From positions 1 to 39,267 of the IMG/VR virus record IMGVR_UViG_3300044999_000110: 39,267 nucleotides of DNA. One strand, written 5' to 3'. Positions 4,422-35,749 of the stretch are shown here, piece by piece. The position numbers were made by a program, and so were the translations under genes. The notes beneath the pieces were generated by a model, which was not told where the DNA came from, did no database searches, and saw only the letters and a program-made list of their open reading frames with translations. The DNA is from a virus. Each line of letters begins with the position of its first letter. Within the stretch, counting starts at the first letter, position 1.

Positions 4422-5033
4422 TCAACCGATATTGATCGTACCCTGCTCAACGGTGACGCCTGCATAAGGCTTCATCGCCTCCTGCAGGGCTCTCAGCGCG
4501 TGCGCCTGGCTTGCAAGTGGTCCGCGAATTGAAATCCAGAATTCATCTTCAACGGGCCCGGTCTCGATCTCCTTGACCTCGAGCTCATCGGGCTCATCGA
4601 GGATCCGGCCTAATTCATTCGGCGAGAAGCCTAGGATCAGCGGGTTTTCGCCGTCGGCCTGAATTTCGAGCAAGACGCCACGCAAAATGTCGTCGTCCCA
4701 GCGGGAATTCTCCGGCAACCTGTTGAGGGCGATCGCGAGCGCTTTGTAGGCAGTCTCGCTCAAGCCGTCGACGACGCGGCAGGCCACATCCGGCCGGCCC
4801 ATACGCTTCAGCGCTTCGACCGTGGCGTGGCCGCCGATGATTTGCCCCGACGGACGGATCGATATTGGATTGACGAAGCCGAAGCGCTCGATCGAGGCCA
4901 CGATCTGCGAAATCTGCGCTTCCGAATGTCGCCGGGCATTGCTCGGATCTGAGGTAAGATCGGCGACCTTGCGGACCTCGTCGGTGATGACGGGCTCGCC
5001 GGCCGGTGGTGACATCGTCGCTTGCCGCGCCAT
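4422..5033 (-). CDS. ParB/Srx-like nuclease-domain protein
   Basis: 203 residues. Residues about 15-110 match the ParB N-terminal fold: ADLTSDPSNARRHSEAQISQIVASIERFGFVNPI, then the GGHATVEAL segment in the place of the GERR box, a CTP- or nucleotide-handling site in the family. No HTH centromere-binding domain follows; the C-terminus is acidic. Such single-domain proteins sit near terminases in many phages and their role is unsettled (nuclease, CTPase switch or partner of a methylase). Start chosen at 5033 because it overlaps the upstream stop by one base (TGATG); a longer reading would run antisense-like through the neighbouring gene. Confidence 0.75.
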   Translation of the reverse strand: MARQATMSPPAGEPVITDEVRKVADLTSDPSNARRHSEAQISQIVASIERFGFVNPISIRPSGQIIGGHATVEALKRMGRPDVACRVVDGLSETAYKALAIALNRLPENSRWDDDILRGVLLEIQADGENPLILGFSPNELGRILDEPDELEVKEIETGPVEDEFWISIRGPLASQAHALRALQEAMKPYAGVTVEQGTINIG

Positions 5034-5479
5034 CAGGTCATGCTTCCCGACATGAAGCACCGGATGTCGACCCCGATGTAGCCGCGGATCGGCCACACCA
5101 TCGTCTTGCCGGCGCGGTTCGGTTCCGTGATCACGGCCTCGTCGGGAACATCGAACCAGCCCAGCTTGCCGCTGTTGTCCGGGATGCGGACGCGGTAGTG
5201 GCCGTCCCTCGATTCCCAGTCGACGTCCGATAGCGCGGTGCCGTCGGCATCGCTGCAGCAAAGCCCCTTGCCGCTGGCGAGATGATCGAACCAAGGTTTC
5301 AGCGGTGAAGCGGCGTAGCGGCCGTCGTCATGGGCGAGCGCGATGCCGATGCCGGCGATCAGTAGGACCGCGACCACGAGCGCGATGATCGGCCAGTTGG
5401 ATTCGCGGTGGCCGTCTCCGGACTCGTTCCAGAAGCGCTCGAAGTCTTCGCGCTCTCGGATACCGAAGTTGCGAGGCAT
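5033..5479 (-). CDS. Single-pass membrane protein, unknown
   Basis: 148 residues. A charged cytosolic N-terminus is followed by one strong transmembrane segment (IIALVVAVLLIAGIGIALA, about residues 31-49) and a periplasmic domain with GLCCSDADG and a late RCFMSGSMT. The cysteines could form disulfides or bind a ligand. The sequence style is like uncharacterised Rhizobiales proteins. Both ends are translationally coupled: ATG 5479 overlaps the upstream stop and its own stop overlaps the ParB-like start. Confidence 0.75.
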   Translation of the reverse strand: MPRNFGIREREDFERFWNESGDGHRESNWPIIALVVAVLLIAGIGIALAHDDGRYAASPLKPWFDHLASGKGLCCSDADGTALSDVDWESRDGHYRVRIPDNSGKLGWFDVPDEAVITEPNRAGKTMVWPIRGYIGVDIRCFMSGSMT

Positions 5480-6372: not shown

Positions 6373-7017
6373 TTAACTTTCACTCCTCGGTTGATTCGGG
6401 CGAGCGTTCTGTGCAGCGAGCACGACAAGTGACCGCGTGAAGGCTGCCAGGTGCGCGGAGTATGGGACCGCTTTTTCACCCCTGGCCACCTGCCGTTGCC
6501 GATAGATTTTGTACGACGCATTGACCTGGGCGAGGCCGCCGTCACGCCGGGACTTCTCGACGCTGACGATAATTTCTTCGACCACGTTTGAAGCCACCGT
6601 CCGCAGCTCGGCTTCCGTCTGCCAGATGGCACCAAGCATGGCTGCGACATTCACGATCTTGTCGCGGACCTCACGCGGCGGCGAAACCAGCCAGCCGTTA
6701 CCTCGCGACCGGCCATCGGCTGCAAAATCATCCAGGGATTGTAGCAGCACCAGTTCGGCATGCTGCGGTTTTGAAAACCAGAGAACATCGAAAACGTCGA
6801 GGCATCCGTTCCGGTCGAGCCTGACTTGCGAAACTTCGCCGGCAGGTCCGCCGTGAACATACAGCGCCCGCGCACCGAGCGCCTCGATATATGCCCCGAC
6901 CAGCGCGCACCGCTTCCCCATGACCGGGTTTACCCCGGCGGCTTTAATCGGCGGTAAAAGGCCTGTTTCACGTGAAACATGAGCCACTTGGGCGACCCGG
7001 CCACCAAAATAGGTCAA
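6373..7017 (-). CDS. Unknown protein, parS site near its 5' end
   Basis: 214 residues if it starts at TTG 7017; the in-frame ATG at 6921 gives 182. Neither start has a strong ribosome site. No family recognised; the protein is mostly helical with a polar C-terminus (LVVLAAQNARPNQPRSES) and a segment SVEKSRRDGGLAQVNASYKIYRQRQ. If ATG 6921 is right, the perfect parS palindrome at 6964-6979 lies in the divergent intergenic region and not inside the frame. It is transcribed away from the rightward gene at 7140. Confidence 0.6.
   Translation of the reverse strand: MTYFGGRVAQVAHVSRETGLLPPIKAAGVNPVMGKRCALVGAYIEALGARALYVHGGPAGEVSQVRLDRNGCLDVFDVLWFSKPQHAELVLLQSLDDFAADGRSRGNGWLVSPPREVRDKIVNVAAMLGAIWQTEAELRTVASNVVEEIIVSVEKSRRDGGLAQVNASYKIYRQRQVARGEKAVPYSAHLAAFTRSLVVLAAQNARPNQPRSES
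6964..6979. promoter_or_regulatory. Perfect parS-like centromere site
   Basis: The 16 bases TGTTTCACGTGAAACA are a perfect palindrome and equal the consensus site bound by chromosomal ParB/Spo0J proteins in many bacteria, including alphaproteobacteria. Identity is seen directly. Function is inferred: it could capture the host ParB or be read by one of the two ParB-domain proteins encoded here. Confidence 0.75.
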
Positions 7018-7139
7018 AATTTACCGCTAGATTGCTGATTTTGTTGATAAAAATGGCTTGCGGCCTATCCCGAAAGGTGGTTTTATAATGGCATTCCAAC
7101 GGGGCACCGCCCCACCACCGCACAAGGGAGATCGTGCAA

Positions 7140-7379
7140 ATGTCCCCCACCAAAATTCCCTTTATCTTCTTCTCCCGCATCGACCACAGGAATACGAACT
7201 GGCGCGGCTGTGAATGCCAGCGCTGCACCCCGACGCCCGACGTGCTCTATATTGCGATGGGCGGCGATGGTCTGGACTCCGAAGGCTACCCGCTCGGTTC
7301 GCCGCGCGAATGGTCTGACGACGAATTGAGAGAGCTTCGCCGTCACGAGCGCGCTTGCGACGATCACGGGAACTTTTGA
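7140..7379 (+). CDS. Small hypothetical protein, 79 aa
   Basis: Unknown. The N-terminus MSPTKIPFIFFSRIDHRN precedes CECQRC, a possible metal-binding pair, and an acidic/arginine C-terminal helix (WSDDELRELRRHERA). ATG 7140 sits 10 bases after AAGGGAG; a GTG at 7134 is too close to that site. A TATAAT at 7084-7089 may be the -10 of its promoter. It is followed by a good intrinsic terminator, so it is probably monocistronic. Confidence 0.65.
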   Translation: MSPTKIPFIFFSRIDHRNTNWRGCECQRCTPTPDVLYIAMGGDGLDSEGYPLGSPREWSDDELRELRRHERACDDHGNF

Positions 7380-7449: not shown

Positions 7450-7656
7450 ATGCAACTGACAGGACAGCTATCTTCAGCCGAGCAGATGCGCCGCGCCGCC
7501 GCCTGCCAGGCCTTTTGGAGCGACCGGCCGCTTAATCGCGCCTTCCGAGAGCAGTACCGGACCAGCACGTTCACGCTGAGGGACTTCACCGCATTCGTGA
7601 TTGCGATGCCGGCGGAGCAATTTCTGCAGCTCGTCGGAGGCTCCGATGCTCGCTGA
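7450..7656 (+). CDS. Small hypothetical protein, 68 aa
   Basis: Helical protein (MQLTGQLSSAEQMRRAAACQAFW) with a region RTSTFTLRDFTAFVIAMPAEQFLQLVGG. No motif recognised. The start lies 18 bases after the terminator of the previous gene, so the ribosome site is short (GAAGGATCAT). Its end overlaps the next gene, carrying that gene's GGAGG ribosome site. Confidence 0.6.
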   Translation: MQLTGQLSSAEQMRRAAACQAFWSDRPLNRAFREQYRTSTFTLRDFTAFVIAMPAEQFLQLVGGSDAR

Positions 7657-8410
7657 ACTCGCTGCACCGATGAACGCCGCACAACGCGCCTGGGCGACCC
7701 GCCGGGCCCGCGATGCCGCCCGCGTCGAGATCGCCGCCATCAAGGCCGGCGTCGAGCAGCCATCACGCGCCTTCGATCCCGACAAGCCTGTGGTCGATTT
7801 GTGGCTCGATGATGCCAGGGTCGGCTGCGGGCAACGCCGCTATATCGTGCTCGAGGTCGGTACCCGTTGGGTGAAGCTGTTCTATCCGCCGCAGCTCGCC
7901 CTCGTCACGATCGATCGCGTTACCTTCGATCGCCACGCCAAACCGGCGCGAGATGCCAAGGTCCGGAAGCTGGCGCGCATCATCCGCGACAATGTTGCGG
8001 CCGCCAAAAAGATTAACGAGGCCGCGGGCAAGCCCGTGATGCCGGATGGTGGCGCGCGGGCAAAGCAGGCGCTTCAGATTCTTACCCAGACCGAGGGCGA
8101 CGTCTGCAAGATCGGCTCCGCGTTCGATCCTGCAATGAGATTAAGGACTTGCCAGATTGCTAACTGGCACAAACTCAAGCTCGCCTTCACCTTGATCGTG
8201 AGCAACGCGTCGCTTTTGGAATCAGAGGTGTGCAATTACCTCGCGCCGCGATCTTTGGGCTCGGAATGGTTTCGAATCGATCCCAACGAGCTAATCGACG
8301 CAATCATCGGAACTGCCTACCGGCTGTCGATTAACTTCTCATTTTCGGGCGACAAGCCGGTGCCGCGCGACTGGCTTTTTGTCGCTTCAGCCGGCGAGGC
8401 GCGGACATGA
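7646..8410 (+). CDS. T5orf172/MUG113-type GIY-YIG-like protein
   Basis: 254 residues. The C-terminal part (about 155-225) reads VCKIGSAFDPAMRLRTCQ, then LKLAFTLIVSNASLLESEVCNYL and GSEWFRI, the order of conserved blocks in T5orf172/MUG113 domains of the GIY-YIG superfamily. Such proteins are predicted nucleases or DNA-binding factors of phages. The N-terminal 120 residues, rich in alanine and arginine, have a conserved-looking beta region (VVDLWLDDARVG ... YIVLEVGTRWVKLFY). ATG 7646 has GGAGG 7 bases upstream. The stop overlaps the next ATG (ATGA). Confidence 0.72.
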   Translation: MLAELAAPMNAAQRAWATRRARDAARVEIAAIKAGVEQPSRAFDPDKPVVDLWLDDARVGCGQRRYIVLEVGTRWVKLFYPPQLALVTIDRVTFDRHAKPARDAKVRKLARIIRDNVAAAKKINEAAGKPVMPDGGARAKQALQILTQTEGDVCKIGSAFDPAMRLRTCQIANWHKLKLAFTLIVSNASLLESEVCNYLAPRSLGSEWFRIDPNELIDAIIGTAYRLSINFSFSGDKPVPRDWLFVASAGEART

Positions 8411-10242: not shown

Positions 10243-10761
10243 TTACGCTCGGCGTCTTTTGTTGGCGTTCTGCTCGGCATCGGTAGCCCAACGAACGTTG
10301 CCAGGCTCATAGTTGCCGTCGTTGTCCGGGTAGCGATCGATGGAGTGGTTCGGAGATGGCCGACGGCCGACATCACGGAGAAAACTCGAAAAGCTCTCGC
10401 GCCAAGATGCACAGATCGTGATGCCGCGAGCCCCATAATATCTGAAATTGTGAGCCCTCGGATTGTCACACCGAGTAAACATGCTCTTCCAAACCAGGTA
10501 TTCGGGAGTTTGAGCTGCGGCCTCGCCGTGAAGACGGTTCTGGTGGCCCTGCTTGCGCGCACCTTCCATCCGGATGCAGCCGCAGCTCAGGGTATGGCCA
10601 GATCGCAGGTGGCCTCCCGTTGCGAGGATCTCCGTGCCGCAGTCGCACCGACATCTGAACCGACGCTGCGGCGCGCCGTTCGGCGGTCGACGCGCTTCTA
10701 CCTCCGCTACAACTGTGAGCTTACCGAAACGATCGCCGATCATTTTCAGGTGACGCATCAT
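10243..10761 (-). CDS. Zinc-ribbon plus HNH/AP2-like phage protein
   Basis: 172 residues. The N-terminal module IGDRFGKLTVV ... CRCDCGTEI ... SGHTLSCGC is a four-cysteine zinc knuckle. The C-terminal part (YLVWKSMFTRCDNP ... YYGARGI ... W.SF.SFLRDVG.RP ... SIDRYPDNDGNYEPGNVRWA) is the repeat-type block found in many phage HNH/AP2-associated proteins. Likely a DNA-binding or homing-type nuclease. ATG 10761 overlaps the helicase stop, so it belongs to the leftward operon. The smaller protein at 5479-5748 shares the N-terminal module. Confidence 0.65.
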   Translation of the reverse strand: MMRHLKMIGDRFGKLTVVAEVEARRPPNGAPQRRFRCRCDCGTEILATGGHLRSGHTLSCGCIRMEGARKQGHQNRLHGEAAAQTPEYLVWKSMFTRCDNPRAHNFRYYGARGITICASWRESFSSFLRDVGRRPSPNHSIDRYPDNDGNYEPGNVRWATDAEQNANKRRRA

Positions 10762-15247: not shown

Positions 15248-15862
15248 TCAGGAATTGATGTCCGCGCCGCCGGTGGCGAACTTGTCATAGCGGACGCGTG
15301 CCTTCGGCGGCTGATAGGCAAGGGCCGCATGATGCAAACAATATGGAAGATCGGGCAGAGCTTCGTCGCCGCAGAATTCGAAGTCCGGCTCCGTCGGATT
15401 CCCGCGAGGCCAGCGGCAACTCGTTGGCGTCAGCTGCATCAGCTTGATGCCGGTGCCGTCCGGTGCTTCGCCCTTCAATCGTTCCGGCAGGCCGGGCTCG
15501 CTGTCGGCGATCGCGATGGCGGCGGCAATGCTGTTGGATGGATTGCGGCGTCGTGGCGCAACGGGATCGTGGCCGTTCGCCTTGGCCTGAAGGCGCGTCA
15601 CATTGCGGAGGCGGCCTTCGGATGTAACAGGGGGGGGTGCAGGAGGCGCTTGCCTTACGATGACATGTGAGCGCGCCATCTTTGAATTTTTGCTGTCCGG
15701 AACGGGTAATTTCAGCCGGTGGATTTTACTGATAACGGCGTTGCGTGTTATGTAGCCCTCAAGATCGCGAGCGATCTGCGACGCGCTCCATCCCTTGGCC
15801 CACAATTCGGTGAGGCGACCGACGCGCGTTTCAGTCCATACTTCGTTGAAGTTGATCGTCAT
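15248..15862 (-). CDS. gcrA: GcrA-family transcription regulator
   Basis: 204 residues. The N-terminus WTETRVGRLTELWAKGWSASQIARDLEGYITRNAVISKIHRLKL is the GcrA DNA-binding domain. The C-terminal TSCRWPRGNPTEPDFEFCG ... LPYCLHHAALAYQP is the sigma70-contact block. GcrA works with CcrM methylation at GANTC sites in alphaproteobacteria. Encoded here it may redirect host RNA polymerase or read phage GANTC sites. Start ATG 15862; a longer frame would take in the upstream small gene. It is 22 bp upstream of the Rmf-like gene. Confidence 0.9.
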   Translation of the reverse strand: MTINFNEVWTETRVGRLTELWAKGWSASQIARDLEGYITRNAVISKIHRLKLPVPDSKNSKMARSHVIVRQAPPAPPPVTSEGRLRNVTRLQAKANGHDPVAPRRRNPSNSIAAAIAIADSEPGLPERLKGEAPDGTGIKLMQLTPTSCRWPRGNPTEPDFEFCGDEALPDLPYCLHHAALAYQPPKARVRYDKFATGGADINS

Positions 15863-16025
15863 GGTTGTCCCCCATTTTGCGGCGTTTTTTGATTTCTGAA
15901 ATCGGTTCGCCGCTATGCATCGACTCGGCGATGTCGCCCCAATAGTCGGACCAGCGCAAAAGCAGATGCGCCATCCACTTGGATGCTCGATAGGCAAGTT
16001 CTTTGAACAAGACAGGAAGTCCCAA
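15831..16025 (-). CDS. Small hypothetical protein, 64 aa
   Basis: Aromatic- and charge-rich frame (LPVLFKELAYRASKWMAHLLLRWSDYWGDIAESMHSGEPISEIKKRRK). TTG start at 16025; a start a little further upstream cannot be excluded. It ends 31 bp inside the GcrA gene and starts 36 bp after the previous stop, which matches the dense packing here. No family recognised. Confidence 0.4.
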   Translation of the reverse strand: MGLPVLFKELAYRASKWMAHLLLRWSDYWGDIAESMHSGEPISEIKKRRKMGDNHDDQLQRSMD

Positions 16026-16807: not shown

Positions 16808-17500
16808 ATGGGGAACGATTTGAAATCAGACATTCTTCGGCGGATCGACGAGCAGCTGGAAAAAACCGGCAAAGCTGCGACCGCTGTATCGACCGATGCC
16901 GGCTTCAACGAAGGATTCATCCGTGACATGCGGAGAAAGAAAAAACTCATGCCGGGGATCGATAAAATCGCAGCACTCGCCACGCAGCTCGAGACGACGC
17001 CGGAGTATCTCGCGTTCGGCGTCGGCTCGTCCGAATTTGTCGAGAGTGTCGGCATGCCGGTGCGCGGCGAGGTCGCTGCCGGCCTCTGGCATGAGGTTGA
17101 CGGCATAACCGACGCGAATGCCTTCGAGAGCGTGCCGATCGCACTGGACCCGCGCTATCCCAAGGAGGCTCAGTACGGCCTTATCGTGAAAGGAACGTCG
17201 GTCAACAAGGTTGCTAACCCGGGCGACGTATTGCTCTGCCTCGATCTTGCCTTGACCGGCATCGATCCACGTCCAGGCGACATGGTGATCGTCGAGCGCA
17301 GGCGCTTTCAGGGCCGTGAACGAGAGGTGACTGCCAAGCGCATGCGCCGTGAGGGAAAGCTGATCCTGTTGATCCCTGATAGCACTGATCCGGCATGGCA
17401 GGACGCAACCGCGATCAATGCCAAAAAACCGTCAGAGGACATCGATGTCGCGGTCATTGCCATCGTGTCCGGCGTCTGGCGACCGATACGTGACCGATGA
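16808..17500 (+). CDS. LexA/S24-type phage repressor
   Basis: 230 residues. An Xre-like HTH region (ILRRIDEQLEKTGKAATAVSTDAGFNEGFIRDM) precedes a S24 peptidase-like domain. The cleavage-type segment is GEVAAGLW, the catalytic Ser lies in KGTSVNKV (Ser131) and the Lys in TAKRMRR (Lys177). Such repressors keep the lysogen silent and self-cleave on RecA activation. It starts at ATG 16808, not at an upstream in-frame ATG, because the upstream part contains its operators. It is followed by a secreted-protein gene whose ATG overlaps its stop. Confidence 0.88.
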   Translation: MGNDLKSDILRRIDEQLEKTGKAATAVSTDAGFNEGFIRDMRRKKKLMPGIDKIAALATQLETTPEYLAFGVGSSEFVESVGMPVRGEVAAGLWHEVDGITDANAFESVPIALDPRYPKEAQYGLIVKGTSVNKVANPGDVLLCLDLALTGIDPRPGDMVIVERRRFQGREREVTAKRMRREGKLILLIPDSTDPAWQDATAINAKKPSEDIDVAVIAIVSGVWRPIRDR

Positions 17501-29952: not shown

Positions 29953-31587
29953 ATGCAAATCATCGAAGCCAAACTTCACGACCTGAAGATCGATCCAGCC
30001 AACGTCCGGCAAACCGACAAGGCTCCGGATGAAGGACTGCTCGCCAGCATCAGGACCAAGGGGCTGATTATCCCGCTCATGGTGCGCAAGAACGGTGCCG
30101 GCTATTTCGTCACCGATGGCGGCAAACGTCTTGCCGCACTTCATATCCTCGCCCGTGACGGCGAGTTCGACAAGACGACGCCAATTGCTTGCGTAATGCG
30201 AGAGGATGATGCGGCAGCTGCCGCCGACACAAGCCTCACGCTCAATTTCATCCGCGAAGGCATACATCCGGTCGACGAGTTCGAGGCCTTTGCCAAGCTC
30301 GTCGACGCCGGCAGGACGCCGGATCAGATCTCCAAGGGTTATGGCATTCCGCTGAAACAGGTCGGCCAGTCTCTTGCGCTTGGCAGGCTTGCACCGGAAG
30401 TCCGACAAGCATGGCGTGACGAGAAGCTGGACGAAGCCGCAGCTCGTGCCTTCACTCTTGAGCCGGACCAGAAGCGCCAGGCTGAGCTATTGGCCTCGCT
30501 CCGGAAACGCAGCGGTCTCAATCCCTGGACCGTCAAGACTGCCATCATGGGCGATGAGCGCGAGGCAAAGGCGCTTGTCAATTTTGTTGGCCTCGATGCC
30601 TACAAGACGGCTGGTGGTGCGACGACAACGGATCTGTTCGCCGACACTAAGGACCCCGCAGTTGTCGCCACCGATCTGAAGCTTCTCAAAAAACTCTATG
30701 ACGAAAAGCTGAAGGCCAAGGTCACCGAGCTGAAGGCGGAGGGCTGGAAGTGGGTCGAGTTTCAGTCTGATCTTCCCTACAACGCGCAATGGTGGACTGC
30801 GAAAGGTAAGAGCGCGGTCAAGGCGGAGGATCGCGGCAAGTTCGGCGTCATCATCTCGAAGGGCCACTATGGCGATATCGAGATCAAATATGGAGTCACC
30901 AAGCCGGCCGCGGAAAAGGCAGAGGCCAAGAAGAAGGCGGCTTCGAAAGATGGTGTGACTGTCGTCGCGTTGCCAGCCGCGCTGTGCGGTCGCCTGACGG
31001 ATCAGATCACCAAGGCGACCGCCGAAGTCCTGAAAACCGACAGCAGTCTTGCGTTGGCGATCGTGGCGGCGGCGCTGACATCCTTTGACAGCCCCATCGA
31101 TATCTCAGGCGAAGGCAGCGGCCGCGCCAAGTTCACGGTCCAGCTGCCGCTGATGCGGAAGAAGTCCGCCGCTGAGCTGCACAAGGTCTTGGCCGATATC
31201 GCCGCTGACTCGGTGTCGATCGGCGCCTCTGCCCAGGACAGCCTTCCGCTTGCCAAGAACAGCCAGAATGACCGCGCGCTGCTCGAAGCGCTGGACGCCA
31301 AGAAGCTGAACGCTGCACTCCGCGCCAACTTCGATGCCGCAGATTACTTCGCCGGCGTCACCGTGCAGACCTGCAAGGATGCCATTGCGCTCTGCGATCC
31401 AAAACAGCCGATCACCGGCAAGGAGAAGAAGTCGGAGCTGGCGAAGCTTGCAGCCGATCTCGTCAAGAAATCGAATGCGGGCGGGAAGGCCGGATATCTG
31501 CCGCCGGAGATGCGAACCGCTCATTACGATGGTCCGGCGCCGAAGGTTGCCGCCAAGGCCAAGCCCGCGAAGAAGAAGGCGCGGTAG
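29953..31587 (+). CDS. ParB-family protein (ParB/Spo0J-like, large)
   Basis: 544 residues. N-terminal ParB fold (LKIDPANVRQTDK ... SIRTKGLIIPLMVRKN ... FVTDGGKRLAAL near residues 50-63, GGKR in the place of GERR). Residues about 95-145 match the KorB/HTH region (FAKLVDAGRTPDQISKGYGIPLKQVGQSLALGRL). The middle and C-terminal domains are alanine-lysine-rich and unrecognised. ParB proteins load on parS DNA and use CTP. SD AGGAG is 7 bases upstream. This is the second ParB-domain protein in the window. Confidence 0.78.
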   Translation: MQIIEAKLHDLKIDPANVRQTDKAPDEGLLASIRTKGLIIPLMVRKNGAGYFVTDGGKRLAALHILARDGEFDKTTPIACVMREDDAAAAADTSLTLNFIREGIHPVDEFEAFAKLVDAGRTPDQISKGYGIPLKQVGQSLALGRLAPEVRQAWRDEKLDEAAARAFTLEPDQKRQAELLASLRKRSGLNPWTVKTAIMGDEREAKALVNFVGLDAYKTAGGATTTDLFADTKDPAVVATDLKLLKKLYDEKLKAKVTELKAEGWKWVEFQSDLPYNAQWWTAKGKSAVKAEDRGKFGVIISKGHYGDIEIKYGVTKPAAEKAEAKKKAASKDGVTVVALPAALCGRLTDQITKATAEVLKTDSSLALAIVAAALTSFDSPIDISGEGSGRAKFTVQLPLMRKKSAAELHKVLADIAADSVSIGASAQDSLPLAKNSQNDRALLEALDAKKLNAALRANFDAADYFAGVTVQTCKDAIALCDPKQPITGKEKKSELAKLAADLVKKSNAGGKAGYLPPEMRTAHYDGPAPKVAAKAKPAKKKAR

Positions 31588-34605: not shown

Positions 34606-34928
34606 GCGATAATAACATAACCGAATTTCCTCATCGCGATTTGATTGCGGAAATGAAGGGGCCAGAGAACGTAGGCAATTGTGTCCGCGTCAATGGCCGC
34701 GAAATTCCAAAATTGGCGATGTTCGATCATGGTGATGAAATCGAATTTATATTGGATCACCGAGTTTCCTACGGCTTCCCGCGCGCTCAAGCTTGGGATG
34801 CTGCCGCTTTCGCATTGGCGGCTATGGCAGTTGGCGCGGGATGCGATCCTTTGAATTTCGAGCCCTCACCGTTCGCGAAGAAGGTTGTGGACTTTGGGAC
34901 CATCAACTCTCCGGAGACGAAACGATGA
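34602..34928 (+). CDS. Hypothetical protein, 108 aa
   Basis: Alpha/beta protein (REIPKLAMFDHGDEIEFILDHRVSYGFPRAQAWDAAAFALAAMAVG). No family recognised. It overlaps both neighbours (ATGA). Confidence 0.5.
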   Translation: MSDNNITEFPHRDLIAEMKGPENVGNCVRVNGREIPKLAMFDHGDEIEFILDHRVSYGFPRAQAWDAAAFALAAMAVGAGCDPLNFEPSPFAKKVVDFGTINSPETKR

Positions 34929-35749
34929 GCGATAGAGAGAAGCTGGTTGAGGTGATGAAAGATGCCTCTCGTAAGGCAACAAGCCGAGATCTTGATACAA
35001 ACGCTGCTTGGAGCTTTATCGCCGATGCTGTCATTGCCCTCCGCTCTCCCCCGCAAAGGGGAGAGGTAGCGCGGCTGATGAAGGCTCTCCAAGAGATTGA
35101 ATCGACATCATCAACAAGGGCCGCAGCTATTGCTCGTGATGCCCTCGCTTCCCTCCCCCCATCTCCCGAGGACCGGACAGACGATCCCTTAGATATGCTG
35201 GTAGCGAAATTTGCCAAACGGCTACTGGCAAAATTGAAACTTGCGAGGGCGAACGGCCGATCAGGATGGGAGCGCGACGATTGGGAAGCCGACTGCCAGC
35301 GCGGCTTGCTGCGTCATCTCGAAAAGGGTGATCCGCGCGACGTGGCAGCCTATTGCGCCTTCATGGATTATCACGGCTGGATTACGAAATCGCCAGCCCC
35401 TCCTGAGGACCGGACAGAAGGAAGGGAGGTGCGGGAGGCTACAGCAGCCCAACATTTCGATCTTCCGAAAGGGAAACCTGCGCAGTTTGTCCGCAACGGC
35501 GTGTTGGAGACCTGTCAGTGCTGCGACTGCCGCGCCCTCACCCCCTCCCCGTCCGGAGAGGATCATCCGGATTGCTCAACGGATCGCGAATGTGAATTGT
35601 ACGATGCCTTGATAGGTCTTGCATCGCACGCCACCGCCCATCACGACGATTACAAGCAATGGACGCAGGGCGGCGTGACGCTGGAGCCCATCGTCAGTAA
35701 GGCTCTGCGGCTCTCCCCCTCTTCCGGCAACATCGGGGGTGAGAAGTGA
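34925..35749 (+). CDS. Modular hypothetical protein, 274 aa
   Basis: Unknown function. The frame contains a palindromic repeat (35044-35065) read as ALRSPPQRGEV, and the string PEDRT appears twice. A WERDDWEADCQRGLLRHLEKGDPRDVAAYCAFM segment is the best-looking folded part; CQCCDC is a possible metal site. The gene ends in GGEK, as does the protein at 36166. Composition changes along the gene suggest assembly from pieces. Confidence 0.5.
   Translation: MSDREKLVEVMKDASRKATSRDLDTNAAWSFIADAVIALRSPPQRGEVARLMKALQEIESTSSTRAAAIARDALASLPPSPEDRTDDPLDMLVAKFAKRLLAKLKLARANGRSGWERDDWEADCQRGLLRHLEKGDPRDVAAYCAFMDYHGWITKSPAPPEDRTEGREVREATAAQHFDLPKGKPAQFVRNGVLETCQCCDCRALTPSPSGEDHPDCSTDRECELYDALIGLASHATAHHDDYKQWTQGGVTLEPIVSKALRLSPSSGNIGGEK
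35044..35065. repeat. Palindromic repeat inside a coding frame
   Basis: CTCTCCCC and GGGGAGAG, perfect 8-base arms with a 6-base loop, resembling intergenic palindromes that recur in Bradyrhizobium-type genomes. Read in frame it adds Ser-Pro-Pro-Gln-Arg-Gly-Glu. Confidence 0.5.

Follow-up and report, generated by a model that had tools for sequence, protein, structure and literature searches.

Background

What would a virus gain from carrying, exactly once, the parS site of a bacterial chromosome, and which protein would read it there? This question is raised by an IMG/VR virus record of 39,267 bases, the whole of which was analysed here and is called the window. Chromosomal ParB binds parS, closes in a CTP-dependent way and then slides along the flanking DNA (PMC12704722); in Caulobacter, spreading from a single site reaches up to ~2 kb (PMC5815017). 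When a low-copy plasmid bears one strong parS, the viability of Caulobacter drops about 1000-fold; the authors explain this by segregation of the plasmid in place of the chromosome, and an extra parS far from the native cluster can harm the host (PMC5815017).

Results

A parS palindrome at a divergent junction

The site and the genes on its two flanks are the following.

6964-6979, no strand: host-type parS TGTTTCACGTGAAACA, an exact and unique match with a footprint in the relatives L126 and L128.
6373-6921, minus strand: gene of the P0003 family, 182 aa, starting at ATG 6921, studied through its relatives, an AlphaFold model and BFVD.
7134-7379, plus strand: divergent ORF of 81 aa on the other flank of the site, with no Pfam or PHROG match.

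As originally predicted, TGTTTCACGTGAAACA is an exact and perfect 16-bp palindrome. It agrees with the universal parS consensus, is identical to the 16-bp parS of Hyphomonas and is included in the Caulobacter consensus t/cGTTt/cCACGTGAAAca (PMC7022226). Both strands of the window contain no other match at up to three mismatches, where shuffles give 0.10 expected matches, and arithmetic from the base composition (GC ~0.60) sets the expectation for the exact 16-mer at ~3e-6 per window, so that the claim that a chance match is very unlikely holds. Chromosomal parS is oriC-proximal and usually clustered, whereas here one site stands in a 39-kb virus record.

The gap that the site occupies is that of a divergent junction between the minus-strand gene and the plus-strand ORF, again as predicted, and no sigma-70-like promoter or terminator was found at this junction. 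Whether the site lies near the 5' end of the gene or upstream of it had been left undecided. Because the relatives begin at a matching codon (MxKR in L123, L125 and L129, and a matching GTG in L128), ATG 6921, 42 bp downstream of the site, is the best start of the P0003 gene; the site therefore lies upstream of the gene and not inside it.

The P0003 family has no counterpart in Pfam or PHROGs. Its AlphaFold model is confident (pLDDT 89.5) and finds its best BFVD matches among T5orf172/MUG113 proteins (E 0.006-0.01, TM ~0.4), a GIY-YIG-like type that the predicted fold weakly resembles; a Foldseek search against the PDB returned only Hsp70 matches, which are meaningless. The gene at 7601-8410 on the plus strand, two or three genes away from parS, also encodes a MUG113/T5orf172 (GIY-YIG-like) protein.

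Judged from its genes, the element is likely a temperate phage. This original assignment is backed in part by an S24-type repressor, an integrase-like C-terminal domain at the right end of the window (Pfam, under cut-off) and a weak terminase match; no capsid or tail protein was recognised among the 50 window ORFs scanned with Pfam. A strong homologue of the GcrA cell-cycle regulator (15248-15997, minus strand, Pfam E 1e-34) suggests an alphaproteobacterial host, and through it the element may act on the alphaproteobacterial cell cycle by a second route. The ORF at 34793-35749 (plus strand) matches CATASP, the CATRA-associated small protein, just under the Pfam cut-off (E 6e-6) and may belong to a module for conflict or defence. 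Profile searches of genome contigs with the P0003 alignment and a helicase alignment turned up neither a host genome nor a prophage.

Conservation of the site among relatives

Six relatives of the P0003 gene were found, two of which keep 15 of the 16 bases: L126 (genome G004) has CGTTTCACGTGAAACA 48 bp upstream of its orthologue and L128 (G005) has GGTTTCACGTGAAACA 51 bp upstream, so that GTTTCACGTGAAACA is intact 42, 48 and 51 bp before the gene in the window, L126 and L128, respectively. The 14-bp ParB-contact core GTTTCACGTGAAAC (numbering of PMC7383237) is unchanged in both, and the first base of Caulobacter sites is either T or C (PMC7022226). The divergent junction at the site is present in the window and in L128. 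Among these three sequences the 40-bp flanks of the site are 12-40% identical, the codon third positions of the P0003 gene are 31-44% identical and the surrounding DNA is otherwise unalignable; because of the divergence of flanks and third positions, the 15-base identity is not inherited drift, and by these alignments its conservation in L126 and L128 cannot be ascribed to chance. Conservation at the peptide level (VSRET) was considered and rejected, as an in-frame stop lies between the site and the P0003 start in L128 and L123 and synonymous positions elsewhere are saturated. The stop in L128 argues that the DNA, not the peptide, is conserved.

At the equivalent place L123 retains a four-mismatch remnant, TGTTTCACGCGATGGA. 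Three relatives in all, G002, G003 and G006, have no site at up to three mismatches; in L124/L125 and L129, records that may be incomplete, the site is missing and the P0003 orthologue closely follows an upstream DUF6362-type gene. Absence or degeneracy of the site beside an intact gene had been named beforehand as evidence against a role for it, and this is the situation in three of the six relatives and nearly so in a fourth, L123, although not in L126 and L128. Being absent or decayed in four of the six, the site is not essential to the P0003 gene; the comparison indicates selection for it in some lineages, while others can do without it. Upstream of the P0003 orthologue, L123 contains half-parS remnants at 343-358 (CGTTTCACGTGCGCCT) and at 660-675 (TGTTTCACGCGATGGA), as if a parS were decaying.

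Candidate readers encoded by the element

Two proteins of the window have ParB-like domains.

29953-31587, plus strand: P0001, an orphan ParB-like protein of 544 aa with ParB_N and HTH_ParB domains, rejected as reader of the site.
4422-5294, minus strand: P0002, of the ParB-like/nuclease type in PHROGs, with a weak ParB_N match and no HTH_ParB match.

The original prediction allowed that the site might feed these proteins, a proposal that we abandoned. When P0001 is aligned to T. thermophilus Spo0J, substitutions appear at six of the eight positions that contact parS (Q162P, K171I, S172P, R173L, N178Q and G201A), among them R173 and G201, which are absolutely conserved in ParB (residue list from PMC7383237). 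Nor does its presence follow the site: P0001 is 64% identical in G003, whose record is without the site, and in G004, which has it, the copy is visible over residues 1-123 only, with no HTH_ParB match. P0002 shows a weak ParB_N/ParB-nuclease match and its gene probably starts inside the ORF. ParA (AAA_31) was found neither in the window nor in the six relative records, while control genomes were detected. Of the components of an autonomous ParABS cassette, an own ParA is thus lacking, as is, from sequence alone, an own ParB that reads the site. Given the lost contact residues of P0001, its failure to track the site and the missing ParA, the reader is most likely host ParB, which would bind the site in place of an own protein.

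Host-type parS in other phages

The proposed search for the 16-mer in phages and for its enrichment gave a positive answer. With blastn and a 30-letter N-padded query, which reports exact 16-mers, TGTTTCACGTGAAACA was found in 286 of 50,697 INPHARED records (412 sites after merging the strands of the palindrome), counts that do not represent independent events, since many of the records come from closely related phages, dozens of them from Listeria Pecentumvirus. The two control 16-mers, the reversed palindrome and a permuted palindrome with the same core, were each absent from INPHARED. IMG/VR held TGTTTCACGTGAAACA in at least 120 stretches, compared to 1 and 5 for the two control palindromes. 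The carriers span unrelated groups, namely Pecentumvirus, Harbinvirus, Kenyattavirus, Woesvirus, Korravirus and Jesfedecavirus as well as phi29-like phages, roseophages, gokushoviruses and inoviruses. Among viral records with the site, 4 of 100 encoded ParB_N and 0 of 50 encoded ParA, both lower bounds because many of these records are fragments.

Variants of the site point to the same match with the host. The palindrome TGTTCCACGTGGAACA, which we take to be the P. aeruginosa-type parS variant, occurs in 58 INPHARED records with Pseudomonas as the largest group (17 of 58); ten further rows are from Klebsiella, mostly RaK2-like jumbo phages with the site within a gene. The asymmetric B. subtilis-type TGTTCCACGTGAAACA occurs in 147 records (Pseudomonas, Arthrobacter, Bacillus) compared to 0 for its reversal. 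Escherichia and Salmonella, which to our knowledge have no chromosomal ParABS, are outside the ten commonest groups of every list and absent among the matches listed.

Host contamination is excluded as the source of parS for the isolates P100, Woes, Nubia, DSS3P8, phi 3, Bo-Finn and phi29. Short IMG/VR contigs and the 'Listeria phage LM 4-...' fragments, by contrast, may owe their parS to it. INPHARED contains numerous parS-bearing records, short and without annotation, under names such as 'Listeria phage LM 4-11-1' and 'LM 4-14-1'; these resemble fragments of a host chromosome. In the literature searched, which comprised published papers free of subscription, no report of host-type parS in phages was found, be it as a general feature or otherwise.

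Sites are biased towards the space between genes: 39% lie outside ORF calls compared to 11% of the positions of the control TCANNTGA (Fisher 5.7e-6; 69 nucleotide clusters, IMG/VR loci listed). In isolated phages they occupy narrow intervals where two genes meet: the site lies ~25 bp ahead of a gene in Nubia and ~17 bp ahead of one in Bo-Finn, and in Vibrio phage phi 3 (L139) it separates A1 from A2 within the terminal repeat. In P100 it overlaps the first bases of gp159. The neighbouring genes differ between phages and include DNA polymerase, prohead protease, Zot and A1/A2. The inovirus bajarodino virus 69 (L138, 5,843 bp) has five perfect sites (712, 1182, 2767, 4108 and 5764), all at or near gene junctions, and its annotation lists no partition genes; L150, an inovirus related to it, apparently has six. 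In several phages that are not related to each other, namely phi 3, Pseudomonas phiPsa374-like phages, SYP (L147), UAVern and DSS3P8 (L135), sites lie in terminal repeats or in the first kilobase of the record, regions that may enter the cell ahead of the other DNA.

Discussion

We consider it fairly probable that the 16-mer functions as a host-type parS under selection and recruits host ParB, with positioning or partition as the likeliest benefit. Recruitment of the host machinery, as originally proposed, draws indirect support, good as far as sequence and evolution go, from the footprint in two relatives, the host-matched enrichment, the intergenic placement and the lack of a ParA or a parS-reading ParB in the element. 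Because this enrichment concerns unrelated phages without partition genes, the site is probably a docking site for host ParB. We infer both the binding and what it would achieve. In an infected or lysogenic cell the site would be read by chromosomal ParB of the host, which would load as CTP-dependent clamps, slide over a few kilobases of element DNA and bring along host ParA and also SMC, MipZ and similar partners, so that the element DNA would be treated like the origin region of the host. Positioning and partition of an extrachromosomal element would be the likeliest gain, linked to competition of the element with the chromosome for the partition machinery, and neither an own ParA nor an own parS-reading ParB would be needed. 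The toxicity of plasmid-borne parS in Caulobacter implies that a phage parS should take hold of the partition apparatus of the host, to the benefit of the DNA in cis (positioning, partition) and at the expense of the chromosome in trans (mis-segregation). By analogy with that work, integration of the element at a great distance from the native parS cluster can make the site harmful to the host.

Several observations speak against recruitment. Three of the six relatives have no site and L123 only its remnant, and the element has a single site where Caulobacter has a cluster. In each of the three carriers the site lies close to the start of the P0003 gene, a placement that local regulation would explain too. 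We rank local gene control second after positioning or partition, and a decoy third.

Local control would mean that host ParB or another factor represses or times the P0003 promoter from the site with no role in partition, and we regard this as rather improbable. It would account for the same position relative to the P0003 gene in the window, L126 and L128 and for the divergent junction in the window and L128, and promoters near chromosomal ParB can be affected (PMC7022226). Against this, other phages have the same sequence beside quite different genes, inherited synteny suffices to explain the fixed place, and the junction has no sigma-70-like promoter.

Less likely still, phage copies could titrate ParB and stall host segregation and division, the location of the phage DNA being irrelevant. 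Virulent phages such as P100 and phi29 do carry sites, and the toxicity of plasmid-borne parS in Caulobacter is proportional to affinity (PMC5815017); most carriers, however, have only one to a few sites, and for an element that looks temperate a toxic decoy would be costly. Moreover, phi29 reportedly uses Spo0J in cis for spore entrapment.

We give very little credence to a site serving P0001 or P0002, since the ParB_N and HTH_ParB domains of P0001 come with lost parS-reading residues, with retention in site-less G003 and no HTH match in site-bearing G004, and no ParA is encoded in the window. Similarly remote is a chance occurrence without function: four of six relatives lack the site or have it in decayed form, but the low expectation, the near-perfect copies that two divergent relatives have in the equivalent position and the class-wide enrichment weigh against it.

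Returning to a host-type parS that docks host ParB, we lean slightly towards a wider reading in which orphan host-matched parS would be a general viral device that docks host ParB, and possibly SMC, across many phyla and in tailed, filamentous and micro-phages, to position, partition or protect DNA. The element studied here would then be a case from the Alphaproteobacteria, apparently temperate and unconnected with sporulation. If true, many phages dispense with partition genes by borrowing the host centromere system through a 16-bp tag, parS becomes a simple sequence marker for phages that use host ParB, and such use outside sporulation can be tested directly with the ParB reagents already available for Caulobacter or Bacillus.

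Comparison with known systems

Compared to the chromosomal parS of Caulobacter and Hyphomonas, the window has the identical 16-mer with its contact core intact; the chromosomal sites are clustered near oriC, whereas here a single copy lies on a mobile element with no adjoining parAB. The ParABS cassettes of P1 and of mycobacterial extrachromosomal prophages likewise place a parS-type centromere on phage DNA, but they combine their own ParA and ParB with a replicon-specific parS, while the window has a host-type site and no ParA (PMC7157519).

The likely precedent, by analogy, is phi29 with Spo0J. Like the present element, phi29 has host-type parS on phage DNA without ParAB: its genome (L152, NC_011048) contains four exact B. 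subtilis-type sites TGTTTCACGTGGAACA at 10445, 15903, 17243 and 18760, three of them within genes and the one at 17243 directly 3' of the terminase gene. Meijer et al. (2005, EMBO J) are said to have implicated Spo0J in the trapping of phi29 DNA in spores. The two differ in that phi29 is virulent and the element here looks temperate, and in that phi29 reportedly uses Spo0J for spore entry whereas an alphaproteobacterial host forms no spores. A host-type parS on a phage is thus a known idea from phi29; new are its presence on an apparently temperate element, the non-sporulating host and the many phages that the survey adds.
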